Below are positions 32,650-48,975 of a DNA stretch of 64,000 bases, one piece after another. Source of the stretch: Croceibacterium atlanticum (GTDB lineage Bacteria > Pseudomonadota > Alphaproteobacteria > Sphingomonadales > Sphingomonadaceae); contig NZ_CP011452.2 in NCBI RefSeq assembly GCF_001008165.2, positions 744,001 to 808,000 on the forward strand. The letters run 5' to 3'. A program made the translations under genes and the position numbers. A model generated the notes under the pieces. The model was given only the letters and a program-made list of their open reading frames with translations, made no database searches and was not told the origin of the DNA. How positions within the stretch are numbered: position 1 is the first letter of the stretch; the number at the start of each line of letters is the position of its first letter.

Positions 32650-33762
32650 TCAGTTTCCGTGATAATCGCAGGATACCCGCCCCCCTGCATGGCGAACAAG
32701 GCGCCCGGCAATTTCCAGTTCCAGCAATGCCATCTGCACTTCCCCGGCACTGGCGCCGCTCTGGCGGACGAGTTCATCCACCCCCACCGGCGCAGTGGTG
32801 AGCAGGCCGGCAATATCGGCAGGTTCGGCCTCCACCAGTTCTTCCGGCGCATGATTGAATGTTTCGGCCGCCTCGCGGAAGGTGGAGCGCGGATTGCCGT
32901 CGAAGCCGGACAGCAGCTCCATCACGTCATCAGGGCTCTGCACCAGCACGGCGCCTTCGCGGATCAGCTGGTTGCAGCCATGGCTGCGTGCATCCAGCGG
33001 GGATCCGGGGATTGCCATGACTTCCCTGCCCGCCTCCCCGGCGAGCCTCGCAGTAATCAGCGAGCCCGATTTCGGCGCTGCTTCCACCACCAGCGTTCCC
33101 GCAGCCAGCCCGGCGATGATCCGGTTGCGGCTGGGGAAATGGCTGCCGCGCGGCTCCGTGCCCGGCGGCTGTTCGGCGATCAGCAGGCCTTCCTGTGCGA
33201 TGCGTGCCTGCAGCTCCGCATGTTGCGGCGGATAGGTAATGTCTATCCCGCTGGCGATGACCCCGATTGTCGATGGCAGGGCGCCCTGATGCGCCGCGCC
33301 ATCTATCCCCCGCGCCAGGCCCGAAACCACGGTAAAGCCTTCATCCGCCAGCGCTTTCGCGAAATCTCTCGCCAGCTTGATCGCCGCGGCGGAGGCGTTG
33401 CGGGCACCGACCATGGCGACACAGGGCCGCAAGGCCAGCGCAGCATTTCCGCGCAGCATCAGGATTGGCGGCGCGCCTTCGATCTCCCGCAAAAGGGCAG
33501 GATATTCGGGCGAATCGTGGAACAGATATCGCGCGCCCGCCTTGCGCACACCCGCCACTTCCCGTTCCACCACCTCCACAGGTGCCGCGCGATAGGCGCG
33601 CTTTCCACGCGCTGCGAGATCGGGGAGCGCCTCAAGCGCGGAACGGGCATCGCCGAACCGGCGCAGCAATTGGGCATAGGATACCGGCCCGATATTGGGG
33701 GATCGGAGCAGACGGATGCGGGAAAATGCCTCGTCCTGCGACAAGGCTGCCGCTCCGCTCAT
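32650..33762 (-). CDS. dprA: DNA-processing protein DprA
   Basis: Loads RecA on incoming single-stranded DNA during transformation. The 370-residue protein has an N-terminal helical domain (LLRSPNIGPVSYAQLLRRFG), a Rossmann-like core with VAMVGARNAS, SGLARGIDGAAH and the GSHFPSRNRIIAGL signature, and a C-terminal winged helix. The start overlaps the plsY stop by 4 bp, so the two are coupled. Gap to topA: 131 bp. Confidence 0.95.
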   Translation of the reverse strand: MSGAAALSQDEAFSRIRLLRSPNIGPVSYAQLLRRFGDARSALEALPDLAARGKRAYRAAPVEVVEREVAGVRKAGARYLFHDSPEYPALLREIEGAPPILMLRGNAALALRPCVAMVGARNASAAAIKLARDFAKALADEGFTVVSGLARGIDGAAHQGALPSTIGVIASGIDITYPPQHAELQARIAQEGLLIAEQPPGTEPRGSHFPSRNRIIAGLAAGTLVVEAAPKSGSLITARLAGEAGREVMAIPGSPLDARSHGCNQLIREGAVLVQSPDDVMELLSGFDGNPRSTFREAAETFNHAPEELVEAEPADIAGLLTTAPVGVDELVRQSGASAGEVQMALLELEIAGRLVRHAGGRVSCDYHGN

Positions 33763-34340
33763 TTCTTGCCGCCCACTCTTGGTTCCGTGCCCTGCGTCAG
33801 CCGTTTCAGATTGGCCCGGTGGAGCCAGATCACCAGCACGGCGATACCGCCCAGCACGGGGATGAACTGGTCATACCCCAGCACTGCCGCCGCAACCGCC
33901 GCCGCCACGACCGAACTCATGCCCGCGAGCGAACTGATCCGCGTCAGCGCCAGAACGCCCAGCCAGACCACCGCGTAGGTCAGGCCAATCGGCCAGGCGA
34001 GGCCAAAGCTCACGCCCGCATTGGTCGCCACGCCCTTGCCGCCCTTGAAGCGCAGCCAGACGGGGAAGCAATGACCCACCACCGCGCCAAATGCCGCCAC
34101 CGGCACAGCCAGGGGGAAGAACTGCCAGACCAGCCAGACGGCGAAATAACCCTTGCCCAGATCGAGCAGCAGCGTGACCGCCGCCAGCCATTTGCTGCCG
34201 GTTCGCAGCACATTGGTGGCCCCGATATTGCCGGAGCCGATCTGGCGGATATCCCCCTTGCCCGCGGCCATGGCCAGCACCAGGCCGAAAGGGATCGATC
34301 CGAGGAAATATCCGAGGGCCAGAGCCCAAAGCCAGTCCAT
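33759..34340 (-). CDS. plsY: Glycerol-3-phosphate acyltransferase (acyl-phosphate dependent)
   Basis: Inner-membrane enzyme using acyl-phosphate to acylate glycerol 3-phosphate, the first phospholipid step. The 193-residue protein has about five to six membrane helices and the conserved motifs GSIPFG (about 13), GSGNIGATNVLRTGSK (about 37-52), and GHCFPVWLRFKGGKGVAT. Its stop overlaps dprA by 4 bp. It is divergent from murI with a 101-bp gap. Confidence 0.96.
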   Translation of the reverse strand: MDWLWALALGYFLGSIPFGLVLAMAAGKGDIRQIGSGNIGATNVLRTGSKWLAAVTLLLDLGKGYFAVWLVWQFFPLAVPVAAFGAVVGHCFPVWLRFKGGKGVATNAGVSFGLAWPIGLTYAVVWLGVLALTRISSLAGMSSVVAAAVAAAVLGYDQFIPVLGGIAVLVIWLHRANLKRLTQGTEPRVGGKK

Positions 34341-34441
34341 AACTTCCCTGCTTTCTCAGCGAATGCCTTGTCCGAAGGCAGCCTTGCCCTTACGCGGCAT
34401 GAAAGAAAAGCGGGCCTTCGACAAGTTCGAGCCCATCGGGA

Positions 34442-35251
34442 ATGGATTTGTCAGCGATGGACCCCTCCGCACCGATACTCCTGTTCGATTCCGGGATCGG
34501 TGGCCTCACCGTACTCGCAGAATTGCGCAAAATTTTGCCCCAGGCGCCGGTGATCTATGCGGCCGATACGGCCGGCCTCCCCTATGGCGCAAAGACCGAG
34601 GCGGAGATTGCAGCGCGCGTTTCCGGCCTGCTGGGGCGGCTGGCGGAACGATATCGCCCCCGGCTGATCTGCATTGCCTGCAACACCGCATCCACCATCG
34701 CATTGGGCATGGTGCGCGAAGTGCTGCATGTGCCGATCGTCGGGACGGTGCCCGCAATCAAACCCGCCGCGGAGATGACACGGACAGGAACGATCGGCCT
34801 GCTCGGCACGGCGGCAACGATCCGGCAGGCCTATGTCGATAATTTGCAGGCCGAATTCGCGGCGGACAAGCGGCTGCTGCGCTTTGCCGCGCCCGATCTC
34901 GTATCCGCGGCGGAAGCGAAATTGCGCGGTGAAGCTGTCGATCCGGATATCTACAGGCAGGCGGCGGAGGGGCTCCGCAGCCAACCCGGTGGGGCAGATA
35001 TCGACACGGTCGTGCTGGCCTGCACCCATTTCCCGCTGGTGGAAGACGGGTTGGCCGCAGCATTCGGCCCCGGCGTGCGCTTCGTCCATGGCGCGCAGGG
35101 GATTGCCCGCCGCATCGCTTTTTTGACCGGTGACAATGAAATGCGGCGCGAAAGGCCCGATTTCGCCCTCTTCACCGGGGGTGCTTCGCAGTTCGAGGCA
35201 TTGCTGCCTGCGCTGGTAAAATACGGACTAGATCATGCTGATCGCTTTTAA
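34442..35251 (+). CDS. murI: Glutamate racemase
   Basis: Supplies D-glutamate for peptidoglycan by cofactor-independent racemisation. Both catalytic cysteines are present: CNTAS (about residue 80) and CTHFPL (about 192), along with the N-terminal [10 protein letters not shown] and ADTAGLPYG. Two starts are possible, ATG 34442 (269 aa) and ATG 34457 (264 aa); neither has a strong binding site. The 3' end overlaps an ATG-started extension of hemA by 17 bp. Confidence 0.95.
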
Positions 35252-36578
35252 TGCGAATCCATCGCAAACTCCGTGCTTTAAAGACCGGACTTCATCCACT
35301 AAATCGCCGGGGACTCATGGCCGCGGCTCTGGATGCGGTGCAAGACGGATAAGTCCGCTGAATTACGATCAGATCTTCGACCAGGCGATCGACCGGCTTC
35401 ATTCCGAAGGTCGCTACCGTGTCTTTATCGACATCCTGCGCAACAAGGGTGCATTCCCCAATGCGCGCTGTTTCCATGGCCATAACGGGCCCAAGCCGAT
35501 CACGGTCTGGTGCTCCAACGATTATCTGGCGATGGGCCAGCACCCCAAGGTAATCACCGCCATGGAAGAGGCGCTGCACGATGTCGGCGCCGGATCGGGC
35601 GGCACGCGCAATATCGGCGGCAACACCCATTTCCACATCCAGCTGGAAAGCGAACTGGCCGATCTGCATGGCAAGGAAGGAGCATTGCTGTTCACCAGCG
35701 GCTATGTCTCCAACGATGCCACGCTGTCCACGCTGGCCAAATTGCTGCCGGGCTGCGTCATTTTCTCTGACGAATTGAACCATGCCAGCATGATCGCCGG
35801 CATCCGCAATTCCGGCGCGGAGAAGCGGATTTTCCGCCACAACGATGTGGAACATCTGGAAGAACTGCTGGCGGCAGAAGATCCGGCAGTGCCGAAGCTG
35901 ATCGCGTTCGAAAGCGTCTATTCCATGGATGCGGACATCGCGCCGATCCATGCGATTTGCGACCTGGCAGAAAAATACAATGCGCTGACCTATATCGACG
36001 AAGTCCACGCCGTCGGCATGTATGGCGCACGCGGCGGCGGCATTTCCGAACGTGACGAAGCGGCCCATCGCATCGACATCATCGAAGGCACGCTGGGCAA
36101 GGCATTCGGCGTCATGGGTGGCTATATCGCCGCCGACAAGAAGGTCATCGACTGCATCCGGTCCTATGCGCCGGGCTTCATCTTCACCACCTCGCTCAGC
36201 CCAGTGCTGACCGCCGGTGTTCTGGCCGCGGTGCGCCATCTGAAGAGTTCAAGCGTTGAACGCGAAGCGCAGCAGGCGGCCGCCGCCATGCTGAAGCAGA
36301 AGTTCCGCGAAGCCGGCCTGCCGGTCATGGATTCCACGACCCATATCGTGCCCCTGATGGTTGGCGATCCGGTCCGCGCGAAAAAGATCAGCGACATATT
36401 GCTGGCCGAATATGGCGTATATGTGCAGCCGATCAATTTCCCGACTGTGCCCCGCGGCACGGAACGGTTGCGCTTCACCCCCGGCCCCGCCCACACGGAA
36501 GCCATGATGGATGATTTGACCAGTGCCCTGGTCGAAATCTGGGATCGGCTCGAACTGCAACTGCGCGAAGCGGCCTGA
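35235..36578 (+). CDS. hemA: 5-aminolevulinate synthase
   Basis: PLP enzyme that condenses glycine and succinyl-CoA to 5-aminolevulinate (C4 haem pathway, typical of alphaproteobacteria). Motifs: [22 protein letters not shown], the NEFA-like [11 protein letters not shown], the [10 protein letters not shown] aspartate and the PLP lysine in GTLGKAFG. Family members begin [17 protein letters not shown]. The residue before that Asn is encoded by CTG at 35358-35360. The only standard start in frame lies 123 bp upstream, inside murI, and would add 41 odd residues. The true start may be CTG 35358 (406 residues). A 15-bp hairpin terminator follows. Confidence 0.93.
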
Positions 36579-36602
36579 ACTCAATCGACATTCCGGTAAT
36601 GC

Positions 36603-36635
36603 AAATGCCGGCCGTCAGTATGACGGCCGGCATTT
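36603..36635. terminator. Bidirectional terminator between hemA and the 36645 gene
   Basis: A perfect 15-bp inverted repeat (aaatgccggccgtca / tgacggccggcattt) with a 3-nt loop lies between convergent genes, 24 bp after the hemA stop and 9 bp from the other stop. AAA/TTT ends supply a short U-tract in both directions. Confidence 0.85.
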
Positions 36636-36644
36636 CTACATGAA

Positions 36645-37691
36645 CTAGTCGGAACTTCCGGTATTTCCGGCCGCTTCCTGCGCGCGTTCGGCGCGGGAGG
36701 CGGTGATATAATTGCGCGGCTGCACATTACCTTCGTGGCAGGCATATTCGTAGAATTCGTAAGTGCTGTCCCGCTTCCAATCCAGCCGCGTGCCCCAGGG
36801 GGCGGTGAAGATCACCGGATCTTCCCAATGCGATTCATAGATGATGCTGTCCGGCCCGGTCATGGTGAAGCGTTCGGTCAGTTTCGCTTCCGTGCTGATC
36901 GGTGAATCATTTTCGGGTGGGGAGCCGGAGGTCACGATATTGGTCGCGGATGGTCCGGGGCGGAAATGATCCGTTTCCACGACCAGCGTGTTCTTGTCCT
37001 CCCAATATCCGCGGCTTTCGCCAATCCAGTTCCGGATTTGCGAAGGGACGGTTGCACGCCCATCAGTGGGAATGATCCGCACTTCATGGATCATCTCCAT
37101 CTGGATCGCGACAAGACCGGGCGCCTGAAAAATGCGCAGGCCGTTATTATACATCATCGGCATCATCGAAGCCGGAAGACCGCGCGTGATGCAGCGGTCC
37201 CAGCTGTCGAAATCCGTCAACCAGTCGAAATCCTGCTCTCGCCGCCAACTTGAACGCATTTCGGCCGAGCGGCGCTTCCCCTCTTCGGTCATTTCCGGGA
37301 GCCGCCCATTGGCAGGTTCGACCAGCAGCGAAGTCCGCCGGTTGACCACGCCCATTTCCACCCAATGCCCCTGGCCGATCTTGTCTTCGGAATCTTCCGC
37401 CTCATACCGGCCCGCCAGCCGGTCGATCCGAGCCTGCCGCTCTGCCAGCTCCTCTTCATTCAGGAACACGCGGTTGCCCTGTTCTTCGGTGCGCTGGAAC
37501 GGCAATCCGTTCAGATGGTCGATTGGCCAGCGCCCGCGAAGATCGGGTTCGCCCCATTCGGTCAGTTCCGGCGTATAATCATCCGGTATCGGCGGCAGCT
37601 TCGTCAGATCTTCCTGCGCCGACAAGGACACCGCCCCGGCAGTCAGCGCAAACGCCATAGCAGCACCGGCGATACGGAATTTAGCTTGCAT
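36645..37691 (-). CDS. Secreted protein of unknown function
   Basis: A 348-residue exported protein with a signal peptide (FRIAGAAMAFALTAGAVSLSA, cleaved before QED). The mature part is rich in Trp, Glu and Arg, with PDLRGRWPIDHLNGLPFQR, DSWDRCITRGLP and WGTRLDWKRDSTYEFYEYACHEGN. This pattern is typical of a protein family abundant in sphingomonads and acidobacteria with no assigned function. The ATG at 37689-37691 is used; it is preceded by GGGAAGGGG, and the open frame upstream begins only with TTG. It lies 118 bp after the nucleotidyltransferase gene on the same strand. Confidence 0.7.
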   Translation of the reverse strand: MQAKFRIAGAAMAFALTAGAVSLSAQEDLTKLPPIPDDYTPELTEWGEPDLRGRWPIDHLNGLPFQRTEEQGNRVFLNEEELAERQARIDRLAGRYEAEDSEDKIGQGHWVEMGVVNRRTSLLVEPANGRLPEMTEEGKRRSAEMRSSWRREQDFDWLTDFDSWDRCITRGLPASMMPMMYNNGLRIFQAPGLVAIQMEMIHEVRIIPTDGRATVPSQIRNWIGESRGYWEDKNTLVVETDHFRPGPSATNIVTSGSPPENDSPISTEAKLTERFTMTGPDSIIYESHWEDPVIFTAPWGTRLDWKRDSTYEFYEYACHEGNVQPRNYITASRAERAQEAAGNTGSSD

Positions 37692-37808
37692 CTTGCCCCT
37701 TCCCAATTGCCTCTCCAGCGCAAACCCGCCGGAGAGAATATCGTTTCTTGAGCGTATTATTTGAAATGCAATTAAATTGCCAGCCCATCCGGATCGGATG
37801 ATGCAATG

Positions 37809-38858
37809 CTATGCTTTTGTCGGCAGGGGCCTGCTCCGCGAAAGCTCCAGCAGCCGAGAAAGTCGCCATAAACCGCGCCTTTCCGGGTGCTCCACCCCTT
37901 CTCGCCCCCCTTCAAGCGGGGGGTTGATCGGCGGATCGACCAGCAGCGTCAACATTGTGAAAAGCGATGCCAGGGGCGGATACCGCAATTGCAAAAGCCG
38001 CCGTTTATGTTGCAGGCGCGGCCAGATTCCGCGCACCATGCGATCCGGCACCTCCCCACCGAGCAGGGAATGCAGGCTGCGCATCTGCACGCGCATCGCA
38101 TTGCGGCCATGCCGCGTCGGCATCAGGCGGATCAGGCGTGACCAGTCTATCTGCGCCCGCCGTGCCAGAATGGCGAGATCGACCAGATGGCGCAGGTCAA
38201 TCTGCCCGCGCGCATAATCATATTCCTGCAACTGGTCGTGCACGATAAAGATCAGCGCCTGATGATCCGGAGATGGGACCAGCACTCGCGCAGTATCCAG
38301 CGCCACCGCCTTCGCTTCATCCGCCAGCGCGGCATGGTCCAGCAGCGGCGCGGCGATCTTGATCCGGCTGTGCAGGTCGATCATGCCCGCATCCTTTTCC
38401 CTGCCGAGGGCGTGAACATCCCACCCATTGGGCGCTTCGCTGACATAGGAATATCCCAGTTCCCTCAGCGCGGAGATCGCATCCTCCAGCCGGTCCTGCG
38501 GCAGCATGATATCGAGGTCGGAGAGAATGCGATTGCACTCCCCGTCCCCATGATCCGCCAGCATGGCCGTGCCCTTCAGCATTACGGGGACGAGTCCGAT
38601 TGAATTCAACTTTGCGGCTGCTTCCGCCAGTTGCGCCCGCAACATCGCATTGCGCTGCCGCGCCCTGCTGTCGATCTCCCGCAGGAAGGCCTGCACTTCT
38701 TCGGGGACATCATCGGCATTCTGCAATGCATCTGCCAGGGCGGGCGTCACCAGGCTGCGATTGGCCAGCGCCAGCAAGGTTTCCCACTCCACATCAGCCG
38801 GAACCGACCCGCGCAGGCATTGGGCTAAATCTGCGAGATCATCAAAACGCGAGGGCAT
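37809..38858 (-). CDS. Uncharacterised nucleotidyltransferase-fold protein
   Basis: A 349-residue member of the nucleotidyltransferase family often found beside PqqD and HprK-like genes. The catalytic-type pattern GTAMLADHGDGECNRILSDLDIML gives the two acidic residues of a minimal NTase (SDLDIML). The C-terminal third is helical and Arg-rich. The C-terminus includes PPLEGGREG, encoded by a small C6/G6 inverted repeat that may be an inserted repeat. The ATG at 38856-38858 is 17 bp inside the end of the PqqD-HprK gene, with GGAAG upstream; the overlap argues for co-translation. Substrate unknown. Confidence 0.7.
   Translation of the reverse strand: MPSRFDDLADLAQCLRGSVPADVEWETLLALANRSLVTPALADALQNADDVPEEVQAFLREIDSRARQRNAMLRAQLAEAAAKLNSIGLVPVMLKGTAMLADHGDGECNRILSDLDIMLPQDRLEDAISALRELGYSYVSEAPNGWDVHALGREKDAGMIDLHSRIKIAAPLLDHAALADEAKAVALDTARVLVPSPDHQALIFIVHDQLQEYDYARGQIDLRHLVDLAILARRAQIDWSRLIRLMPTRHGRNAMRVQMRSLHSLLGGEVPDRMVRGIWPRLQHKRRLLQLRYPPLASLFTMLTLLVDPPINPPLEGGREGVEHPERRGLWRLSRLLELSRSRPLPTKA
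37905..37923. repeat. Short C6/G6 inverted repeat inside the nucleotidyltransferase gene
   Basis: cccccc-ttcaagc-gggggg, encoding PPLEGG in the minus-strand gene. The same translated peptide turns up in unrelated proteins of many genomes, so a small mobile or REP-like repeat is possible (recalled, not checked). Confidence 0.35.
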
Positions 38859-39951
38859 GATCTTCCGCCAGCAAATGCGCAGCATCCGCCGCTTCCCCAT
38901 AAGACAGCGTCAGGCATTGCGCCCCGGCAACCAGATCGCACATGCCGCGCACCATGCCCGCACTGGATTGCCCACTTTCCGAATAAGCTTCTCCAAACAG
39001 GGTTTGCAGCGCCGCCACCCGGTCCCAGCCATCAACGGCTGCCTGCGCACCATCCTGACGCTGCAGGCGGATGACCGCGCCGACACGCCTTGGCCTTGCG
39101 TCAACAGGGCGAACTGGCAGATATTTCAGCACTGCCCCATCCTCCCGCTCGTGCACGGGCAATTGTTCTACATCGGCCCAGGCGGCAGCATGTGGCCAGG
39201 ATCCGCGTTTCAGAGTTAGCGGCAAGGGCAGCCCCTGCACCATGCCGGACGGATCGGCAAAAGCGATGTCATCCCCGGCAAAGCCCCACCCCTGGGCGAT
39301 CAGCGCCAGGGTGAGCGTGCTCTTTCCGGTGCCCGGACTGCCGCAAAGCAGCACTGCCCTGTCGCCCCGGACAAGGCAGGCCGTATGCAGCGCGATGCGG
39401 CTTTCCCGGCTCAGTATGTTGGTCAGCATGGTATGGCGCAGCCGCGTCGCCAACCTGCCGGGTGCCACGAATTGCGCTTCGCCGCCTTCGGCAAGCAGGG
39501 CGATCCGATCGCCGAAGGGGATCACGTGAATGCGCTGTCCGGACCCGCGCGGCGCAATCAATTCGCCATAAGGGGGGCGCAGTTCATCAATCAGCGCCGC
39601 ATCATCGGCCACCACTTCAAAATCGTGGCCACCCAGATCGACTGAAAAGCCTGCGCAATGGGCTGGCGCTGGCGCGATGGCAGCGTTAAACAATCCGCTT
39701 TCGCAAGCATCGGCCAGCCAGCTGGCAGCCATATGCTGCGCATCGTGGCGGGTTTGCGCATGCGGCACGAAAGCCATGGCCATATCGTGAAGGGTGATAC
39801 CGGACTGTGCCTGTTCGACCAGCGCGGCGGCGCTTTCATTCAGTTCGACAAGCTGCTGCTGCCGAGGTGTGAAAAACATCACCCGGCCATCCAGATGCAG
39901 CAATTCACCGCCTGGCGCCCAACGAAATTCAAGACGTGATTGATCCGACAC
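38842..39951 (-). CDS. PqqD-like domain fused to HPr kinase-like P-loop protein
   Basis: A 369-residue protein with two parts. Residues about 1-95 follow the PqqD pattern (GRVMFFTPRQQQLVELNESAAALVEQ ... ASWLADACESGLF), a RiPP-recognition fold that binds leader peptides. Residues about 170-360 contain an HprK-like ATPase core: HTACL, a Walker A GSPGTGKST at 204-212, and FAGDDIAF with the acidic pair. Similar HprK-related kinases near PqqD homologues and nucleotidyltransferases have been proposed as peptide-modification systems. It follows the small Tat-type peptide gene by 117 bp and overlaps the nucleotidyltransferase gene by 17 bp. The modification made is unknown. Confidence 0.7.
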   Translation of the reverse strand: MSDQSRLEFRWAPGGELLHLDGRVMFFTPRQQQLVELNESAAALVEQAQSGITLHDMAMAFVPHAQTRHDAQHMAASWLADACESGLFNAAIAPAPAHCAGFSVDLGGHDFEVVADDAALIDELRPPYGELIAPRGSGQRIHVIPFGDRIALLAEGGEAQFVAPGRLATRLRHTMLTNILSRESRIALHTACLVRGDRAVLLCGSPGTGKSTLTLALIAQGWGFAGDDIAFADPSGMVQGLPLPLTLKRGSWPHAAAWADVEQLPVHEREDGAVLKYLPVRPVDARPRRVGAVIRLQRQDGAQAAVDGWDRVAALQTLFGEAYSESGQSSAGMVRGMCDLVAGAQCLTLSYGEAADAAHLLAEDHALAF

Positions 39952-40017
39952 GTCGATCCCTGCCTGCTACCGACAACCCAAACAGGCAATGCCTAGCAGG
40001 AAAGGATGAATCAAATA

Positions 40018-40044
40018 GCGGCCGCCGGCATTACCGGCAGCCGC
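40018..40044 (-). promoter_or_regulatory. Intercistronic hairpin after the small-peptide gene
   Basis: An 11-pair imperfect stem (gcggccgccgg / ccggcagccgc, one mismatch, 5-nt loop) lies 25 bp after the stop of the small peptide gene and before the PqqD-HprK gene. It may cause partial termination, so that the peptide is made in excess of the enzymes, as in many RiPP operons (inference). Only TATTTG follows. Confidence 0.45.
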
Positions 40045-40068
40045 GTGAAATGCAGGTTCAGGAAAAAC

Positions 40069-40377
40069 TCAGCGCCGGCCTCGACCGCCGCCCTGATTGC
40101 CGGGGTCCCCAGGACCCCTGCCCGGACCGTCATTGACCGGCGGATTACCCGGAGGCGCACAATCCGAACCGTTGCCAACGCCGTTATTGCAACCTGGACC
40201 GCCGTTACCGTCCGGAATGCCCGCGGATTGGGCAATCGCTGGAGATACGAGCGAGGTCGACATGAGCATGGTCATTGCCGGCGGCACGGTCGCGGCGAAC
40301 TTGCCGCAATTGCCGAGAAATGCACGACGATCACTCGCCATGCGCTGCATCTGGTTATCTTCCATGTGGTCAGACAT
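40069..40377 (-). CDS. Small Tat-type exported Gly/Asn/Pro-rich peptide; candidate precursor
   Basis: A 102-residue product starting at the ATG at 40375-40377 with GAGGGGAG about 8 nt upstream. Residues 17-49 form a twin-arginine-like signal (DRRAFLGNCGKF, a hydrophobic stretch, then SPAIA|Q). The mature part of about 53 residues is low complexity: GPGCNNGVGNGSDCAPPGNP, then Gly/Pro/Asn/Asp repeats ending GRGRR, with only two cysteines (63, 73). The two-Cys region could form a disulfide. It is the first gene of the set with PqqD-HprK and the nucleotidyltransferase, so it is the best candidate for their substrate, which remains to be shown. Confidence 0.6.
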   Translation of the reverse strand: MSDHMEDNQMQRMASDRRAFLGNCGKFAATVPPAMTMLMSTSLVSPAIAQSAGIPDGNGGPGCNNGVGNGSDCAPPGNPPVNDGPGRGPGDPGNQGGGRGRR

Positions 40378-40671
40378 GCGTACACTCCCCTCGGGACACG
40401 CTTCCTTATCCATCAAAGTATATTTGCGGGCAACCACATCTGATGATGCGTCCCAAACTGGGACCAATATCTGCTGTTGGCGCCACTTTTCCGGTCAGCC
40501 ATTCAAACAGGAAGGGGCCACCGGCATAATTGCCAAATACTTCTGGCTTCCGGCGTGAAGGGAAATCACTCCAGGCGTTATGAATAACGCTGCTGCCCTG
40601 CCTGAGGCCAAATCATTCGAATGATGGAGCGCGGAAGCAATGGCTACCCATAAGGGGTGGACGAAAAGGCA
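40378..40671. promoter_or_regulatory. Intergenic region with two perfect palindromes
   Basis: No gene is seen between the small-peptide start and the ornithine decarboxylase terminator. The region holds a 7-bp-arm inverted repeat gcgttat-ga-ataacgc (40575-40590) and a 14-bp perfect palindrome atcattcgaatgat (40612-40625). They lie 200-250 bp upstream of the peptide gene and could be operators; no regulator is adjacent. Confidence 0.35.
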
Positions 40672-40702
40672 ACGCCCGCATCTTCCCAGAAGACGCGGGC
40701 GT
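40672..40702 (-). terminator. Intrinsic terminator of the ornithine decarboxylase gene
   Basis: Stem acgcccgc / gcgggcgt with an inner tctt/aaga extension lies 26 bp past the stop; TGCCTTTTCG follows on the minus strand. Confidence 0.55.
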
Positions 40703-40727
40703 GCAAAGCAACCGAACGGATGGCGAT

Positions 40728-42011
40728 TTAGCGCAGGCTCACCACATTGTCCGTGACCGGCAGGGCCCGCTCGCCCGTATAAAGGCTGGCCATTGGCTCA
40801 TCCTCCACGATCACAGCTTGCGCAGCACCAAAGCCGTTGAACGCCGTCTTCATCGCTGCGCCGTAAGCGCCCAGCATACCGATTTCGAAAAAGTCGCCGG
40901 CCTGAATATCGCCCGGCAGCATGAAGGGGCCCTTCATGAAATCGGCATCGTCGCAAGTCGGGCCGTAGAAGGAGAATTCCTCGAACGGCTGGACCAGATC
41001 ATCTTCCAGTGCGCGCACCGGAAAACGCCAAGCGACATGGGCGGCATCGAACAAGGCACCATAAGCCCCGTCGTTGATGTAAAGTTCCTCGCCGCGGCGC
41101 TTTTCGATCTTCACGATGAGGCTCGAATATTCCGCGCATAGTGCGCGGCCGGGTTCGCACCACAGTTCCGCATTATAGGCGATCGGCAGTGCTTCGAAAT
41201 GGCGGTGGATGATCGCGAAATAATCTTCCAGCGGCGGCGGTTCCATGCCCGGATAGACCGAAGGGAAACCACCCCCCACATCGACCATGTCGATCACCAC
41301 GCCGGAATCGGCGATGGCTGCACGCACGCGTTCCAATGCCTGAACATAGGCAAAGGGTGTCATCGCCTGGCTGCCGACATGGAAACACAGGCCAAGCCAG
41401 TCGGACGCCTGGCGCGTCGCCTGCAGCAGCGCGGCGGCATCGGCCAGATCCACGCCGAATTTCGACGCAAGGCTCAGCTCGGAATATTCGGACGAAACGC
41501 GCAGCCGCACGCACAACCGCAGATCGGTGGCGGCATTGCCTTCATCGTCGCGCGTTGCGTCGACGATCTTGCGCAATTCCTCTTCCGTATCGAGGCTGAA
41601 AGTACGCACGCCATGTTCGCGATAAGCTTCGCGGATGGCGCTGGCAGTCTTCACCGGATGCATGAAGCACAGACGCGCATCAGGCAGGGTGGCATGCACC
41701 AGCCGCACTTCCGCGATGGAAGCCACGTCGTAATGGGTAATACCGTTCGCCCACAGGATCTGGAGCAGATCCGGCGAAGGATTCGCCTTCACTGCATACA
41801 TCGCCTTGCCCGGAAACTTCTCAGCGAAGAATCGGGCCGCGCGCGCAGCAGCGTGCGGACGGTTGAGGATAACCGGTTCGTCCGGCGCGATATCGCGGAC
41901 TACAGACCGGGCGTCAGGATAAGTGTGCAATTCAAGGGACCCCCAAACGGTTAGTTTGAACAAGGCTGCCTTGCGGTTAGGAAGTCCCCTTGGGGCAGCG
42001 GAGCGGCGCAT
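40728..42011 (-). CDS. speC: Ornithine (lysine/ornithine) decarboxylase, fold type III
   Basis: PLP enzyme producing putrescine from ornithine (possibly cadaverine from lysine). The 427-residue protein has the PLP lysine in YAVKANP (K75), HVGSQ, the GGGFPSVYPG glycine loop, EPGRALCAE, and the C-terminal catalytic cysteine in GPTCDDADF. The start is uncertain: homologues begin near the HTYPDARSVVRDI region, so the first 25 or so residues may be untranslated. It supplies putrescine to the carboxynorspermidine genes at 44.8 and 47.6 kb. Confidence 0.9.
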   Translation of the reverse strand: MRRSAAPRGLPNRKAALFKLTVWGSLELHTYPDARSVVRDIAPDEPVILNRPHAAARAARFFAEKFPGKAMYAVKANPSPDLLQILWANGITHYDVASIAEVRLVHATLPDARLCFMHPVKTASAIREAYREHGVRTFSLDTEEELRKIVDATRDDEGNAATDLRLCVRLRVSSEYSELSLASKFGVDLADAAALLQATRQASDWLGLCFHVGSQAMTPFAYVQALERVRAAIADSGVVIDMVDVGGGFPSVYPGMEPPPLEDYFAIIHRHFEALPIAYNAELWCEPGRALCAEYSSLIVKIEKRRGEELYINDGAYGALFDAAHVAWRFPVRALEDDLVQPFEEFSFYGPTCDDADFMKGPFMLPGDIQAGDFFEIGMLGAYGAAMKTAFNGFGAAQAVIVEDEPMASLYTGERALPVTDNVVSLR

Positions 42012-42242
42012 ATAGGGCCTCGAATTCTAATCGCAAATCAAAAATTCAACGCCTCGTTTTTAGCTCGTGAATCAATGGGCTGGCGGCGGGCTGCGTTCCC
42101 ATGCTGCGCGGAACGGGGGCTGCATTGCGATGAGTTGAAGCCCATGCACCCAAGCGGACATTCAAATCCCGCCAGCAGCCGGTTTTTATAATTTATTGCC
42201 TGATAATGCCGTGGCATAGCTGCACACCCGCAGGTGGCAGCG

Positions 42243-43019
42243 ATGGATAGTGCGAATCAGGTGATGAACCAGCATTTCGAATCTTCTGCCGCCGCTTTCA
42301 ACCCCGTGCGGCTTTCTCAATTGCCGCAAACCCGCCGGGCCGAACTTCTGCGCCGCTACGAACGGGACGTATATGGCCCCGCATTTCCGGATGCCTCGAT
42401 CCGGGAAGATCCTCAATATTGGGCGCGATTGCTGGATGCCGATCCCTATCCTGCCCCGCCCCAGCCGCTGATCGATGTTGCGATGCTGGTGGACGGGCAT
42501 GACTGTCCTATCGGCGGCGCGACGATCGAATATTATCGCGGCGCCAAATGCGGATTGCTGACCTATCTTTCCGTGGCGGAGCGGGAACGTGGCCAGGGAC
42601 ATGGCCGGGAACTGGCGATGCTGGCCCGCCGCATCCTGGATGAAATGGCGGAAGCTGACACCCCCATGCTCGCCGAAACCGAACGGCTGGAAGATGCCGC
42701 AAATCCGCAGGAGGCGGCCGAAACGGAGAAACGCCAGCGCCGCCTTTCCGCCCTAGGCGCGAGGTGGATCGATTTCGATTATGTCATGCCCCCCTTGCGG
42801 GCAGACAGCCAGCCGCACCGCCTGCATCTGCTGGTCTTCGATCCGGATCGCAAACTGACATCCATCGAAGCGGGACGGGTCGCGGTGCTGATCCGGGAAC
42901 TCGCCGCCGCTCTCGGCGCCGATCTTGATGCGCATGAGGAAACCCGGGCAATGATGGATCATCTTGCGTCGATGCGGCTGTTGCCGATCACGTCCCTGCC
43001 CGCGATTGCCTCCGCATGA
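42243..43019 (+). CDS. GNAT-family N-acetyltransferase
   Basis: A 258-residue protein with a GNAT fold: a YERDVYGPAF stretch at about residue 40 and the acetyl-CoA pyrophosphate-binding motif LTYLSVAERERGQGHGRELAM (RGQGHG). The C-terminal 90 residues are an extra domain. The ATG at 42243 is used with AGGTGG upstream; a GTG at 42234 is possible. The last 4 bp overlap the start of the CorA-like gene (ATGA), so they are coupled. The neighbouring polyamine enzymes make a polyamine substrate conceivable, but nothing in the sequence proves this. Confidence 0.72.
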   Translation: MDSANQVMNQHFESSAAAFNPVRLSQLPQTRRAELLRRYERDVYGPAFPDASIREDPQYWARLLDADPYPAPPQPLIDVAMLVDGHDCPIGGATIEYYRGAKCGLLTYLSVAERERGQGHGRELAMLARRILDEMAEADTPMLAETERLEDAANPQEAAETEKRQRRLSALGARWIDFDYVMPPLRADSQPHRLHLLVFDPDRKLTSIEAGRVAVLIRELAAALGADLDAHEETRAMMDHLASMRLLPITSLPAIASA

Positions 43020-44836
43020 GCGAGTTCGGCATGCTGACGCTGCGGGAATGCCCGGTGTTTCAGCCTTTCGAACGCGCATCGCTGGCTTTTGCCTTCCAGC
43101 TCAGGGTCCTTCGGCCCGATGGATCGGAGCCCCGCTCCGCCTATCGTATTTCCAATATCTACAACGCCGTGCTCGGCCGCAGTCCGGGACTGGAGGCTGA
43201 CCGCCGCGATCGGGCGAAATGGCTGTTCGGCGCTTCGCAGTCCTTTCTTAACGATATCACCACCGGCGTTCCCGGCACCAATGGCCGCCCGCTTCTTCTG
43301 GCGGCCGAGGCGCTAGAAACGGGCGCGCCCCCGGCAATGGTCACGCTGCAAAGGCCGGAAAGCTGGGACTATGAATATGAAGGCACGGCGGTTTCCCTGC
43401 AGGTCCCGCCCGAACGGCGCGAATTGCGCATGGCAATGCAGGATCATTTCTGCGTCTTCGAAAGCGGCCGGATTTTCTATCTACTCGTTCTCAGCAATCT
43501 GCCGGGAGAGCGCAGCCCGCTTGACGAATACAGCACCATTCAGGCGGAACAGCTCGCCATTGAGCCCGACTATGCGGCGGATAGCGATTTTCTGAGCATC
43601 GGCCGTTCCGGCCCGCAATTCTCGGTCCTGGAATTCGTCCGCAATCGTCTGGCCGAACTGGACTCCGGCAAGGAAGAACCAGTGTCGGAATGCGCCAATG
43701 CAATCGCCGATGTGCTGCGTCCATTCGGTGTGCTGCCGCCGGGCCGGAATTTCGCGACGCCCCGGTCGGAGGATCTGTGCAATGCAATGGTGCAGATAGA
43801 AGACGAAGCGCTGTTCGACACGGCCCGGCACGCCTTTTTCCATTATCGAATGCCTGCGCCGGAAGACGTGCAGGGTCCGGAAGACGAAGTGCAAAAGCCG
43901 CATCCGCAATGGGTGATCGATGCTGATCGCGCATGGGCGGAAGCGAATGTGCCGGGCGCGGATTGCCATTGCGATGCGCATCATACGCTGGGCTTCGGCC
44001 CGGATGAGGAAGAAAGCGCGATCCCGCGGCAATTGCTGGCCTTCGCCGGACTTGCCCAGGGCGTGCCCGATTTCCCACGGCAGGACGATTCCGAAATCCA
44101 CGATTCGACGCGTCCAGTATCGGTCGCGCCGGAAAACCTGTTCTTCGTCCACCCTTCATTCGAACTGGATGTGGGGAAGAACTGGCGCACCTTGCGGGAA
44201 GCGCAGGCCAGCGTCGGAGGCTGCCCTTATGCGCTGCTGACCTGGATGATCGCCGTGCATGACGAACTGATCGTGTCCGACATGGAACGGATGATCGAAA
44301 GGATGATTTTCGGCCCGGTGGATCAGGATGCGCAGCTGGCGGAAATCGGCCGAGCGACACCGCTGAAAAACCTCGCCCATGTGCTGGACAAAGTATCCAC
44401 CCTGATCCCTTCCTATACGAAGATCATTGACGATAATCTCGCCCAGCGTGTCGATATATTTCGTTGGTGCTCGATCCACCAGTCGGGGAACGTGTTCCGC
44501 TATCCCACGGAGCGTGAATTGCTGGGCAGCATCCGCGAAGCGCGCGGCACCCGGCAGCGTTTTGAAGATGCGCATGCGCTGCTGGACCGATATGAGAATC
44601 TGGTGGAGGACGTTTCCACCTTGCAGGCATCATACACGTCGGCGCGCACCAATTGGCTTCTGGCTGCGATCACCTTCTTCGGGGTTCTGGGCCTGCCCGG
44701 CACACTGTCCGGTACGTTTGGCCTGACAAATGCCGATGCGCTGCTGGCAACGGTGGGCATTCTTGCATTCACTGCCGCCCTGTTCACCTTCTGGCTGAAC
44801 GCCACTCAGCTGAGGCGGTCGCGAAAATCCTCGTAA
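43016..44836 (+). CDS. Large protein with CorA-like C-terminal membrane domain
   Basis: A 606-residue protein. The N-terminal 450 residues are a soluble alpha/beta region without a recognised motif. It ends in a long charged helix (about 490-540) and two hydrophobic helices (about 550-595) joined by a short loop, the layout of CorA-type channels. The CorA selectivity motif GMN is absent; the loop reads GTFGL. It is translationally coupled to the GNAT gene and overlaps the convergent carboxynorspermidine decarboxylase by 31 bp. An ion or polyamine channel/sensor is conceivable; function unknown. Confidence 0.65.
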   Translation: MSEFGMLTLRECPVFQPFERASLAFAFQLRVLRPDGSEPRSAYRISNIYNAVLGRSPGLEADRRDRAKWLFGASQSFLNDITTGVPGTNGRPLLLAAEALETGAPPAMVTLQRPESWDYEYEGTAVSLQVPPERRELRMAMQDHFCVFESGRIFYLLVLSNLPGERSPLDEYSTIQAEQLAIEPDYAADSDFLSIGRSGPQFSVLEFVRNRLAELDSGKEEPVSECANAIADVLRPFGVLPPGRNFATPRSEDLCNAMVQIEDEALFDTARHAFFHYRMPAPEDVQGPEDEVQKPHPQWVIDADRAWAEANVPGADCHCDAHHTLGFGPDEEESAIPRQLLAFAGLAQGVPDFPRQDDSEIHDSTRPVSVAPENLFFVHPSFELDVGKNWRTLREAQASVGGCPYALLTWMIAVHDELIVSDMERMIERMIFGPVDQDAQLAEIGRATPLKNLAHVLDKVSTLIPSYTKIIDDNLAQRVDIFRWCSIHQSGNVFRYPTERELLGSIREARGTRQRFEDAHALLDRYENLVEDVSTLQASYTSARTNWLLAAITFFGVLGLPGTLSGTFGLTNADALLATVGILAFTAALFTFWLNATQLRRSRKSS

Positions 44837-45987
44837 GAGAAGCGCCGGATCAGATCGAGCTGGTCGGTTTCTGAATCCCATAGCCAGATCGAAGGCAGCG
44901 GCACGCCGTTGAAGGTCGTCGTCTTCACCATCGAATAATGCGCCTGATCGAGGAAGGCGAAGCGTTCCCCCGGCCGGCACGGCACGGGCAGGCGATAATC
45001 GCCGATCACATCGCCCGCGAGGCAGGACGGGCCGCCCAGCCGCACTGGTTCGCCCTCGCCCTGATCCTCATGCAGCATGGCCGGGCGATAAGGCGCTTCG
45101 ATCACGTCGGGCATGTGGCAAGTGGCCGAAACATCGGTGATGGCGAGCGGCATTCCGTTCCAGTGGGAATCGAGGATCGTGCCGACCAATATGCCCGCAT
45201 CCAGCGCCACGGCCTCCCCCGGCTCCAGATATATTTCCGCGCCGGTATCGTCCTTCACGTCCTGCAGGAACTCGATCAGCTCCTCCCGCTGGTAATCGGC
45301 GCGCGTAATGTGATGGCCGCCGCCAAAGTTCAGCCATTTGATATGGCCGAAATAAGGTTCGAGATAATCGAAAACCTTGTCCCAGGTGCGCTTCAGCGGT
45401 TCCAGATCCTGTTCGCAAAGGGTGTGGAAATGGATGCCATCGACCATGGCGAGATGCTCGTCCTCAAGCTGGTCGATCGGGAAGCCCAACCGGGAATGCG
45501 GCGCGCAGGGATCATAGCGCGGCACTTCGCCTTCGGCGTGCAGCGGATTGATCCGCAGCCCCACGTCGAAGCCCCCGCCCTGCGCGCGCATATTTTCTAG
45601 GATCAGGCTCGCCCGTTCGATCTGCGCGGGCGAGTTGAAGATCACATGGTCCGACATCCGGCAGATTTCTTCCAGATCCTCCGGCTTGTAGGCCGCGCAA
45701 TAGGTCGCGATCTCGCCATCGTAGAATTCACTGGCGAGCTGCGCCTCCCACAGGCCGGACGTGCATACGCCGTCCAGATATTCCCCGATCAGCGGCGCAA
45801 CCGACCACATGGAAAACGCCTTCAGCGCCGACAGCACCTTGATATCCGCTGCGTCCCGTATCTCCGCCAGCACTTGCAGATTGGCGCGAAGCTTCGCCGC
45901 ATCGACGACGAAGGCAGGCGAATCCACGCGGCTGAGATCGAATTGGGCAAAGGCGCCCGGGTCACCGGCTCTCGTTTCCATGGTCAT
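44806..45987 (-). CDS. nspC: Carboxynorspermidine/carboxyspermidine decarboxylase
   Basis: PLP enzyme that decarboxylates carboxyspermidine or carboxynorspermidine to spermidine or norspermidine. The 393-residue protein is a fold-type III decarboxylase with PLP lysine K56 in LSALKAFS, the HFHTLCEQ stretch, the GGGHHITRADY loop, EPGEAVALDAG and a C-terminal active-site cysteine region (GGPSCLAGDVIGDY). Together with the carboxynorspermidine synthase at 47581 and the ornithine decarboxylase it completes the aspartate-semialdehyde route to spermidine. Confidence 0.93.
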   Translation of the reverse strand: MTMETRAGDPGAFAQFDLSRVDSPAFVVDAAKLRANLQVLAEIRDAADIKVLSALKAFSMWSVAPLIGEYLDGVCTSGLWEAQLASEFYDGEIATYCAAYKPEDLEEICRMSDHVIFNSPAQIERASLILENMRAQGGGFDVGLRINPLHAEGEVPRYDPCAPHSRLGFPIDQLEDEHLAMVDGIHFHTLCEQDLEPLKRTWDKVFDYLEPYFGHIKWLNFGGGHHITRADYQREELIEFLQDVKDDTGAEIYLEPGEAVALDAGILVGTILDSHWNGMPLAITDVSATCHMPDVIEAPYRPAMLHEDQGEGEPVRLGGPSCLAGDVIGDYRLPVPCRPGERFAFLDQAHYSMVKTTTFNGVPLPSIWLWDSETDQLDLIRRFSYEDFRDRLS

Positions 45988-46093
45988 GCGGCCTCTTAGG
46001 AATATTCCGCCGCCAAGTCATCGGGGCAGTGGCGCCGGTTGGAACCTTTCTTCCCTGTGCTACCCTGCGCGGATCCTTGAGGGGGGAGAGATC

Positions 46094-47515
46094 ATGCACC
46101 GGCTTCTGGCTATTTTCGCACTGGCGCTATGTTCCATTGGCCAGGCCGCTGGCGCGACCGGCTCCATCGACAGCTTCATCGCACGCGAAATGGCGCAATC
46201 CGGCGCGCCCGGCATCGCCTATGCCGTGGTTGAGAATGGCGAAATCGCCAAAATCGGGACGCGCGGAGTGGAAGACCGCGATACAGGAAAGAAGGTGACC
46301 GGGGACACGCAATTCCTGATCGGCTCCCTGTCCAAGAGCTTCACCGCATTGGCCATCATGCAATTGGTGGAGGCCGGGAAGGTCGAACTGGACGCGCCGA
46401 TCTCCCGCTATCTCGGCAGTTTTGCCGATGGCCCGGCCCAATCCATCACCATCCGCCAATTGCTGAGCCATACGAGCGGATATTCCACCCTGCAGGGCAA
46501 TTACTCGCACCAGGACCGCAGCAATGCGCCTGATGAACTGGCCCGGCAGGTTGAACGTGATGCCGCTGAAGCACCCGCATATCCGGCTGAAAGCCGCTAT
46601 GAATATTCCAATCGCAATTACCAGATCCTCGGCCGGTTGGTGGAAGTCGCCAGCGGGCAGGATTTCGCCTCATATGTAAGCGCCAATATATTGCGTCCGA
46701 TCGGCATGGATCACAGCTTCGTGTCCGATGGTGCCGTGCATCCGGAAATGGCCACCGGCTATGCCCCGTGGTTCACCGGCAAGCGCGCCATTTCTCCAAA
46801 CCAGACCCATCGCAGCGTGGCGCCGCAAGGCGGAATAGTGTCCACCGCCCGCGATATTGCCCGCTACATGCAAGTGATGATGAATGGGGAGGACGATGTG
46901 CTGAGCGCCGCGGGCAAGGCGCAGATGATGCAGCCCGCCAATGCAGCGGCGCCCAATTACGGTTTCGGCTGGGTCGTGGACCCCGGCGATGGCAGCGTCG
47001 GCCACAGCGGGACCAGCCCGGGATATGAAACGCTGGCCAACATGATCCCGGCCGAGCAGAAGGCAGTGGTGGTGCTGCTCAATTCCGGAAGCGGGACGGG
47101 ATTTGGCGAGAATGCCGCGCTGCAAAACGGCATCACCGCACTCGCCCTCGGGCTCGACCAGAATGGGGAACCGAGCCGCTGGCAGCAAAAGGCGCTGTTC
47201 GTCTCGCTGGTGCTGATCCCCCTCCTGTTCCTCGCCAGCATGGCCTGGGCATGGCGCAAACGCGCGGAGCTGCGCGCGAAAGCGAAATCAGGTCCATTCG
47301 GCCTGTTCAGCCTGTGGTTCCCGCTGGTCCCCACGCTGGCCATGGTGTGGATCGTCTTTGGCCTCGTGCCGGGCCTGTTCGGCGTGAGCATGAACACGCT
47401 CCGCCAGTTCCAGCCTGACCTTGTGCTTGCCCTCGTCGCCTGCGCGGCGACGGGGCTGCTATGGGCCGTATTCCGGCTGGCGCTGGCCTATATCGGCAAA
47501 CGCCGTTCCGCCTGA
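46094..47515 (+). CDS. Membrane-anchored serine hydrolase, class C beta-lactamase family
   Basis: A 473-residue exported protein with a signal peptide (MHRLLAIFALALCSIGQAAGA). The hydrolase motif SxxK is in GSLSKSFT, the second YxN motif in YEYSNRNY, and the third HxG-like motif in GHSGTSPGY. After about residue 370 there are three membrane helices (LVLIPLLFLASMAW; LVPTLAMVWIVFGLVPG; a last one), an unusual anchor. Relatives are D-aminopeptidases, esterases or penicillin-recognising enzymes; the substrate is unknown. GGGGGGAG precedes the ATG. Confidence 0.87.
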   Translation: MHRLLAIFALALCSIGQAAGATGSIDSFIAREMAQSGAPGIAYAVVENGEIAKIGTRGVEDRDTGKKVTGDTQFLIGSLSKSFTALAIMQLVEAGKVELDAPISRYLGSFADGPAQSITIRQLLSHTSGYSTLQGNYSHQDRSNAPDELARQVERDAAEAPAYPAESRYEYSNRNYQILGRLVEVASGQDFASYVSANILRPIGMDHSFVSDGAVHPEMATGYAPWFTGKRAISPNQTHRSVAPQGGIVSTARDIARYMQVMMNGEDDVLSAAGKAQMMQPANAAAPNYGFGWVVDPGDGSVGHSGTSPGYETLANMIPAEQKAVVVLLNSGSGTGFGENAALQNGITALALGLDQNGEPSRWQQKALFVSLVLIPLLFLASMAWAWRKRAELRAKAKSGPFGLFSLWFPLVPTLAMVWIVFGLVPGLFGVSMNTLRQFQPDLVLALVACAATGLLWAVFRLALAYIGKRRSA

Positions 47516-47580
47516 GCGGCAATGGTTCGCCAATGCCGCCACCCCGAAAAGGAGCTGGCAGCATTGGCGATAAGCAAGGA

Positions 47581-48792
47581 TCAGAACTCTACCGGACCGG
47601 CCAGTTCTTCCACCTTCCACGGCAGGCCGTTTTCGTTCAGCATTTCAAGGAAGAGATCGGGGTCGAATTCTTCCATGTTGAACACGCCGTCGCCCTTCCA
47701 TTTTCCGGTCAGCATCATCGCACTGCCGATCATGGCGGGAACGCCGGTGGTGTAGCTGACAGCCTGATTGCCGGTTTCGGCATAGGCATCTTCGTGGTTG
47801 CAGATATTCTTGATGTAGAACGTCTTTTCACCGCTGCCGTCCAGCGCCTCGCCCGTGGCGATCACGCCGATATTGGTCTTGCCCTTGGTGGTTTCACCCA
47901 GGGTTTCCGGCTTGGGCAGAACAGCCGCCAGGAATTGCAGCGGGATGATGTCCTTGCCCTGGAACTGGATCGGCTCGATCCCCGTCATGCCGACATTCTG
48001 CAGCACGGTCAGATGTTTGATATATTCATCGCCAAAGGTCATCCAGAAGCGGCCGCGTTCCAGTTCGGGCAGGAATTTGGCGAGGCTTTCCAGTTCCTCG
48101 TGATACATCATGTACATGTTCTTCTGGCCGACTTCCTCGAAGTCGAAGGCGACCTTTTTCGACATGGCCGGCGTTTCCACGAACTCGCCATTTTCCCAAT
48201 GGCGGGCAGGCGCGGTCACTTCCCGGATATTGATTTCCGGATTGAAATTGGTGGCGAAGGCCTGGCCGTGATCGCCGCCATTGCAATCGAGAATGTCCAG
48301 CGTGCGGATCGTCTTCAGCTTGTGCTTCTTGAGCCACATGGAGAAGACGCTGGTCACGCCCGGATCGAAGCCACTGCCCAGCAATGCCATCAGCCCCGCT
48401 TCCTTGAAACGGTCGTGATAGGCCCACTGCCACTTATATTCGAACTTCGCCTCGTCCTTCGGTTCGTAATTGGCCGTGTCGAGGTAATCCACGCCCGCTT
48501 CAAGGCAGGCGTCCATGATCGGCAGATCCTGATATGGCAGTGCCAGATTGACCACCAGCGAAGGGTTCAGACTGCGAATCAGATTAATCATCGCCGGCAC
48601 TTCCTCGGCGTCGATCTCGTAAGTCTTCACCTGCTGGCCGGTGCGGTCCTTCACGCTGGCCGCAATGGCATCGCATTTGCTTTTCGTACGGCTGGCGAGG
48701 TGGATATCGCTGAAAATATCGGCGTTCATCGCCATCTTGTGGACTGCGACCGAACTGACGCCGCCAGCGCCGATTACCAGTACTGTGGACAT
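47581..48792 (-). CDS. Carboxynorspermidine synthase (saccharopine dehydrogenase family)
   Basis: NADPH-dependent condensation of putrescine (or diaminopropane) with aspartate semialdehyde, giving carboxyspermidine for NspC. The 403-residue protein has a Rossmann start VLVIGAGGVSSVAVHKMAM, then HLASRTKSKCD, and the family regions GVDYLDTANYEP and GFDPGVTSVFSMW. GGGAGCA precedes the ATG at 48790-48792, so the long open frame upstream is not used. It is separated from nspC by the serine hydrolase gene, so the pair is in one locus but not one transcript. Confidence 0.85.
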   Translation of the reverse strand: MSTVLVIGAGGVSSVAVHKMAMNADIFSDIHLASRTKSKCDAIAASVKDRTGQQVKTYEIDAEEVPAMINLIRSLNPSLVVNLALPYQDLPIMDACLEAGVDYLDTANYEPKDEAKFEYKWQWAYHDRFKEAGLMALLGSGFDPGVTSVFSMWLKKHKLKTIRTLDILDCNGGDHGQAFATNFNPEINIREVTAPARHWENGEFVETPAMSKKVAFDFEEVGQKNMYMMYHEELESLAKFLPELERGRFWMTFGDEYIKHLTVLQNVGMTGIEPIQFQGKDIIPLQFLAAVLPKPETLGETTKGKTNIGVIATGEALDGSGEKTFYIKNICNHEDAYAETGNQAVSYTTGVPAMIGSAMMLTGKWKGDGVFNMEEFDPDLFLEMLNENGLPWKVEELAGPVEF

Positions 48793-48975
48793 GATTGCTC
48801 CCACGAAAAAGAATATGTGCCCATGAGCGAACGCATCGCCCCGGCCTGATGATCCCCGCCATAGCGATTTCCTACACCAGTGAAACAGGGCAAGTGCGGC
48901 AAGTGCGCAAGACATTTGCATGCAGCGGAAATCCGGCTGAAAGGTCCGTGATGCAGTCTGGAATTTTTCTGCTGC

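Follow-up and report, generated by a model that had tools for sequence, protein, structure and literature searches.

What is the function of a small protein with an export-type signal that is encoded directly in front of a PqqD-HprK fusion and a nucleotidyltransferase? The question is raised by a minus-strand locus in the window analyzed here, a stretch of 64,000 nucleotides of the Croceibacterium atlanticum genome (contig NZ_CP011452.2, positions 744,001 to 808,000), in which a preliminary description made from the sequence had recognized a candidate cassette for peptide modification and proposed an undescribed system. Our findings make it probable that peptide, fusion and transferase constitute a modification system of the kind that produces ribosomally synthesized and post-translationally modified peptides (RiPPs), in which the peptide would be phosphorylated, then decorated, and exported. 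On this reading, an annotated but unexplained set of HprK, PqqD and nucleotidyltransferase proteins would gain a substrate and, with Ser51, a candidate residue.

The gene set and its enzymes

The three genes were confirmed where the preliminary description had placed them, on the minus strand, to which all feature coordinates of the cassette refer. The first (40069-40377) starts with an ATG preceded by a Shine-Dalgarno-like GAGGGGAG (40385-40392) and encodes the precursor peptide of 102 residues, as indicated by its open reading frame (ORF), its homologues and purifying selection. The second (38842-39951) starts with GTG and encodes the fusion of 369 residues, recognized from profiles and models, and the third (37809-38858) encodes the nucleotidyltransferase of 349 residues, assigned through Pfam. 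The ATG at 38858 is the best start for the latter, giving the 17-bp overlap with the fusion gene reported earlier, and a second in-frame ATG lies upstream at 38900. The trio is beyond chance, since the enzymes are recognized by profiles and folds, the peptide is under purifying selection (pS 0.69, pN 0.23 and dN/dS ~0.14, with dS near saturation, for the window compared with locus L073) and the same order, peptide directly before fusion and then transferase, is found in 11/11 genomes with strong peptide matches in the combined family and order set.

The C-terminal half of the fusion is predicted to have a PEPCK/HprK fold with the motifs of the HprK superfamily. Comparison of the full-length model (pLDDT 91, pTM 0.87) with the PDB returns PEPCK entries first and HprK from rank 33 (E 2.1e-4). 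The kinase-like domain, placed by alignment and fold at residues ~160-363 (38863-39474), contains His189, a Walker A motif at residues 204-211 and Asp227-Asp228. The histidine, the glycines and the lysine of Walker A and the Asp pair, which we take to be the residues with catalytic roles in HprK, are invariant in 11/11 aligned homologues, and all 11 also match the NCBIfam family HprK_rel_A. When the kinase profile was searched against PDB sequences, most matches were to P-loop proteins, HprK entries appearing at E ~0.01-0.02, and the result was not used.

Regarding the N-terminal domain (residues 1-92; 39676-39951), its predicted PqqD-like winged-helix fold, of strands and then three helices, points to a RiPP recognition element (RRE). 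When the first 102 residues were modelled alone with AlphaFold2 (pLDDT 89.5, pTM 0.72), the best PDB match was a leader-bound lasso B1 protein (6jx3_B, E 7.5e-4, TMt 0.74), the only one at E <= 0.001. Further matches include TbiB1 with leader (5v1v_A at rank 2; 5v1u) and PqqD (5sxy, rank 7), together with a putative regulator at rank 4 that is no known RRE (3dee). Pfam PqqD scores above its cut-off in four of eight further fusion homologues (L112, L119, L164, L182) and below it in L095, L121 and L188, and is unlisted in L096; among the 11 aligned fusion members it appears at E <= 1 in two, the best at 0.0012, neither of them being the window protein. By hhalign, the N-terminus of the fusion aligns weakly with stand-alone PqqD proteins (probability 5-6% and P 0.006-0.008, in full-length register), and for this reason the RRE assignment rests on the Pfam matches of the homologues and on the structure matches. 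With these matches and those to HprK_rel_A, the fusion put forward in the preliminary description holds.

The third protein belongs to PF14907 (NTP_transf_5), with 114 bits against a Pfam gathering threshold of 31.2, in agreement with its earlier designation, and the alignment locates the conserved DxD motif at a DLD (38511-38519). A counterpart lies directly downstream of the fusion in 22/22 kinase loci, some of which repeat earlier ones; the copy in L122 has a broken frame, and that in L120 is truncated where the contig ends. One of the 11 rows of the transferase profile (L065) was out of frame, and its correction left the counts at the 40 leader and 22 kinase loci unchanged. A palindrome with the core CCCCGCTTGAAGGGG was also observed within the 3' part of the window's transferase gene (37907-37925); it was rejected as a genome repeat, the genome holding one exact copy of the core and one with a single mismatch.

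Between the peptide gene and the enzymes, where a hairpin had been noticed, the spacer of 117 nt (39952-40068) folds into two, at 40018-40044 and ~39953-40009 (minimum free energy -51.9 kcal/mol, z -4.24, equalled by 0/200 shuffles). Inspection of this spacer revealed no T-run after the hairpins, so a terminator is not demonstrated.

The precursor family and its association with the fusion

Judged by its sequence, the peptide is a member of an alphaproteobacterial family with a near-invariant leader of ~40 residues (RRxFLxxCGxF...PPxxT...AxAxS) and variable cores. The Tat-like (twin-arginine translocation) signal and the Gly/Asn/Pro-rich core described earlier were both found again, in the form of DRRAFL, a hydrophobic stretch, AIA-Q-S and the tail that follows. 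The leader (residues 1-49; 40231-40377) comprises the twin-arginine-like motif, CGKF, PPAMT and STSL and ends in AIA, and the mature region (residues 50-102 plus stop; 40069-40230) contains Cys63, Cys73 and NNGVGNG, a motif present in some relatives. Sixty distinct relatives were retained, namely the 61 rows scoring >= 75 (73 rows in total) minus a spurious second match in L103. RRxF[LM] is present in 59/60 of them and CG[KR] and PPx[MVI]T in 60/60, as is a Ser two residues past the AxA-like site; the region past AxA is variable and spans 8-129 residues. No Pfam family matched the peptides. As for the two-Cys region pointed out in the preliminary description, both cysteines are present, but only the window peptide and L073 among the 60 carry them at this position, which rules them out as the defining feature of the core. 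L073 is also the only other carrier of a CNNGxGNGxDC core.

Of 199 genomes from the family to which the window belongs, 170 are matched by the kinase query at E <= 0.001, but values below 1e-40 are confined to four (G000, G107, G073, G143), the next best standing at 2.6e-13. Strong peptide matches fall in the same four genomes; weak ones in G114, G181 and G182 lack the leader on three-frame reading and were dropped. A five-peptide profile matches 9/396 genomes of the order, two of them already among the first four. Two tandem peptides occur in G324, and several genomes have more than one leader peptide: in G107, G363, G394 and G447 a second one is encoded at another site, and only in G363 does the stretch fetched there include enzymes. 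This second G363 peptide (L068:6457-6735) adjoins a canonical cassette of the annotated HPr-rel-A system and is convergent with its transferase.

A scan of genome contigs yielded 40 leader loci, ten from genomes already found, with hosts that include Sphingobium, Novosphingobium, Qipengyuania, Microvirga, Bradyrhizobium, Inquilinus and Ensifer, among others. The fused kinase lies inside the fetched locus in 16/40, accompanied by the transferase in 15 of the 16 (the exception, L093, ends in the kinase). The preliminary description had held that peptides regularly occurring without these enzymes would speak against it, and 24/40 loci are indeed without the fused kinase in the fetched stretch; leader peptides of Bradyrhizobium and Microvirga are unlinked to the enzymes. 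However, 18 of the 20 genomes searched that have such a lone locus carry the fusion elsewhere, some fetched stretches ending early, and 22/24 genomes searched behind leader loci encode it (E <= 1.2e-72). At Bradyrhizobium loci L083, L097-L099, L101-L105, L107 and L109, the starts of two leader peptides are separated by ~2.4-3.0 kb; one peptide is short and has an NNGxGN-type core, the other is longer and rich in Gly/Ser, and the fetched locus contains no fused kinase.

At the level of the class, both profiles were run over 385 genomes, the fusion profile scoring five candidates per genome. The leader profile matches 12 genomes at E <= 1e-3 and nine at E <= 1e-5, and the fusion profile 11 at E <= 1e-20. 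With the strict leader threshold, the kinase is present in 7/9 leader genomes versus 4/376 others (Fisher p 5e-11), and with the relaxed one in 8/12 versus 3/373 (p 7e-12), p-values that overstate independence because the genomes are related. Leader peptide and kinase adjoin in six of the seven co-occurring genomes and lie ~50 kb apart in G878; the contig of G887 begins within the kinase gene. Together with the adjacency in all 11 genomes of the combined set, these results show that the peptide family tracks the enzymes, in support of the preliminary description. In G599 (L185:5427-6338 and L184), three small proteins that have a divergent leader and a Cys-rich tail are encoded in tandem, and on another contig a fused-type kinase and a transferase, both called by profile, flank an oxidoreductase-like gene.

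A shared operon could also bring together an exported structural or metal-binding protein and enzymes that act on a small molecule, a lipid or a polysaccharide. HprK-like folds and nucleotidyltransferases do have other substrates, and the many leader peptides that stand alone in their loci would fit such a separation. Nevertheless, the RRE domain of the fusion, the co-occurrence of peptide and fusion even where their genes are unlinked, and Microvirga L080, in which a leader peptide directly precedes another PF14907 protein and the fusion is encoded elsewhere together with a transferase of its own, make this explanation quite improbable.

The proposed pathway and the residue at issue

We infer catalysis and a biological role for the peptide, the fusion and the transferase along the following lines. 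The PqqD domain, serving as RRE, would dock the conserved twin-arginine leader of the precursor, and the HprK-like domain tethered to it would use ATP to add one or more phosphates, most likely at Ser51. The PF14907 transferase would then attach a sugar or a nucleotide to the phosphate. The modified peptide would leave the cytoplasm by the Tat route, and a general signal peptidase would cut the leader at the AxA site, after AIA49. With Tat export and a general signal peptidase, no dedicated peptidase or transporter would be needed; in this regard, none was found with Pfam among the 11 flanking window proteins (32650-48849), to which the search was confined.

Ser51 (codon 40225-40227) is proposed as the target because a Ser follows the AxA in 60/60 peptides and is the sole S/T/Y downstream of it in 4/60, including the nearest relative, L073. 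Alternatively, the fusion could modify another residue of the precursor, either in the leader (Thr36, Ser40, Thr41 or Ser42) or in the core, Ser51 being conserved only as signal-peptidase context. In an alignment of 18 leaders, invariance extends to the Thr of PPxxT and to the first Ser of STSL, and further S/T/Y occur in 56/60 mature regions, all of which lends this alternative some weight; the four peptides in which the AxAxS Ser stands alone, and a precedent in which the kinase LppK adds several phosphates to core Ser3, near the leader cleavage site (PMC13381572), argue for Ser51 and render modification elsewhere rather unlikely.

Several observations weigh against the proposed phosphorylation pathway. 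The best NCBIfam match of the fusion, HprK_rel_A, reaches 69 bits against a cut-off of 200, and the N-terminus of the window protein has no Pfam PqqD match up to E 1. Pfam TAT_signal matches 0/16 peptides tested, the RRxF[LM] motif notwithstanding. The invariance of the leader is partly ascertained, because the family was found through a profile built on the leader and 27/60 peptides belong to Bradyrhizobium or to G878, which resembles it, and a role of the leader in export or at the membrane, rather than RRE binding, could account for its conservation. No kinase match was obtained in two genomes with leader loci, G502 and G513, the former being Ensifer ST2, whose peptide ORF begins inside the leader, and the latter a metagenome-assembled genome of 2.4 Mb. 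Peptides without the enzymes also occur at class level, in G634 (100% complete) and G642, which have a divergent leader and no fusion, only weak P-loop matches being obtained (E 2.9e-6 with 64/64 candidates scored and E 8.6e-11 with 150/207 scored, respectively); a congener of G634, G900, does encode the fusion. G812 and G846 likewise give weak leader matches without a fusion, in G831 a fusion is present close to a contig end but no leader match, and two of the 11 class kinase matches (G091, G528) are canonical, with a discrete PqqD.

The scattered leader peptides suggest an extension of the phosphorylation pathway that we regard as possible, though short of probable: one RRE-kinase fusion and one transferase would act in trans on several unlinked precursors, with the Tat signal doubling as leader and modification preceding export. 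No RiPP family with a Tat signal as leader was found described in a literature search that reached few subscription papers. If this were the case, genome-scattered precursors would escape gene-cluster mining, and the trans-acting arrangement would offer a pointer to the missing substrates of the HPr-rel-A system.

In the surroundings of the cassette, a LysA-like decarboxylase (40728-42011) and a second decarboxylase (44806-45987), presumably of the carboxynorspermidine type, both have 70%-identical counterparts near the G363 cassette (L064:1905-4415). Three ORFs, at 36645-37706 (353 aa), 43016-44836 (606 aa) and 47461-48849 (462 aa), match no Pfam family at E <= 0.001, and the first of them looks secreted.

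Comparison with known systems

The annotated HPr-rel-A system (TIGR04352/TIGR04353, PF14907) shares with our locus a PqqD-type chaperone, an HprK-related kinase A, a PF14907-type transferase and an upstream Tat-type small companion. The cassette could therefore be regarded as this system with a fused gene, a reading favored by the HprK_rel_A matches of all 11 homologues, by the three enzymatic parts in common and by the canonical-type loci L006-L031 (the next-best kinase matches within the window's family), of which 23/26 carry a Tat-type companion and a discrete PqqD. On the other hand, PqqD is a separate gene there and fused here. With 229 and 377 bits, two canonical kinases exceed the fusion, whose 69 bits lie under the TIGR04352 cut-off, and the fusion has no match to TIGR04353 (PqqD_rel_X) up to E 10, a family that two canonical controls do match. 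The companion proteins are unlike the present peptide in sequence: they are conserved, of ~130-145 aa, with C..IPVP ... GFTCYASLQMPR (e.g. L018:605-1000, L006:565-954, L025:513-950), and were counted with a profile built from four of them. One companion scanned against NCBIfam matched no family and three scanned against Pfam gave nothing above cut-off; the Tat-type companion is a candidate substrate of the HPr-rel-A system.

The kinase phylogeny points in the same direction. One branch separates the 40 fused from the 28 discrete rows (support 90/47; 94% of bootstrap trees), in an unrooted tree with unsure long branches, in which the canonical label follows the locus list and three short rows are left out (L002, L028 and, from the set of 11 fused kinases, L069). 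Taken together, these differences make it unlikely that the cassette is the HPr-rel-A system itself. The kinases of the window and of L073 are sisters (99/85), and since L073 also has the only other CNNGxGNGxDC peptide, precursor and kinase appear to go together. G607, G705 and G900 have kinases that group in a separate clade (97/95) and leaders of a variant that lacks STSL. We also observed that the kinase of a genome titled Mycobacterium sp. KBS0706 (L085, L112) clusters with Inquilinus (100/100), so the name of this record may be wrong.

SynChlorMet (ScmC/ScmD, NCBIfam) likewise has HprK-related and PqqD-related proteins, but only a weak ScmC match of the fusion was obtained (15 bits against a cut-off of 125). 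As to the novelty claimed in the preliminary description, no account of the present peptide-kinase family turned up in the same literature search; the kind of pathway, however, has precedents that had been missed, namely HPr-rel-A by annotation and two RiPP groups by experiment, the paeninodin-type lasso peptides and the linear polyphosphorylated peptides (LPP).

In lasso peptides of the paeninodin/pseudomycoidin type, an HprK-like kinase phosphorylates a Ser, and in pseudomycoidin a nucleotidyltransferase adds a hexose to the phosphate; a putative phosphorylated lasso peptide is named for the sphingomonad S. yanoikuyae (PMC8498205). The combination of HprK-like kinase and nucleotidyltransferase is thus common to pseudomycoidin and our cassette. 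One difference is the position of the target Ser, C-terminal in those lassos; moreover, no lasso cyclase (asparagine-synthetase-like) or B2 protease was found among the 11 flanking proteins scanned, the search being confined to these.

Known phosphorylated RiPPs include lasso peptides and, since 2026, the linear peptides of Bacillota, to which LPP are reported as restricted (Popov et al. 2026; PMC13381572). LPP precursors, one to three per cluster, have a conserved N-terminus and a variable C-terminus, and deletion of the LPP transferase caused no change in the host of that study (PMC13381572). Both systems bring together an RRE, an HprK-like kinase and an NTP transferase with precursors built in this way, and the phosphorylated Ser3 of the LPP core may have a counterpart here in the invariant Ser two residues past AxA, our proposed site. 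The differences are also clear: the LPP RRE is discrete, whereas here it is fused to the kinase; LPP have their own SpI-like peptidase and MsbA-like transporter; the LPP leader, YxxPxVLxHQxIxFETxxS, is not seen in the present leader alignments, which have a twin-arginine-type signal instead; and the hosts are Bacillota there and Alphaproteobacteria here. The conserved set, which occurs in many alphaproteobacteria, has the appearance of a hitherto undescribed relative of these Bacillota peptides. If so, the linear phosphorylated kind would extend to Alphaproteobacteria with a simpler machinery, in which the RRE is fused to the kinase and an export signal serves as the leader.

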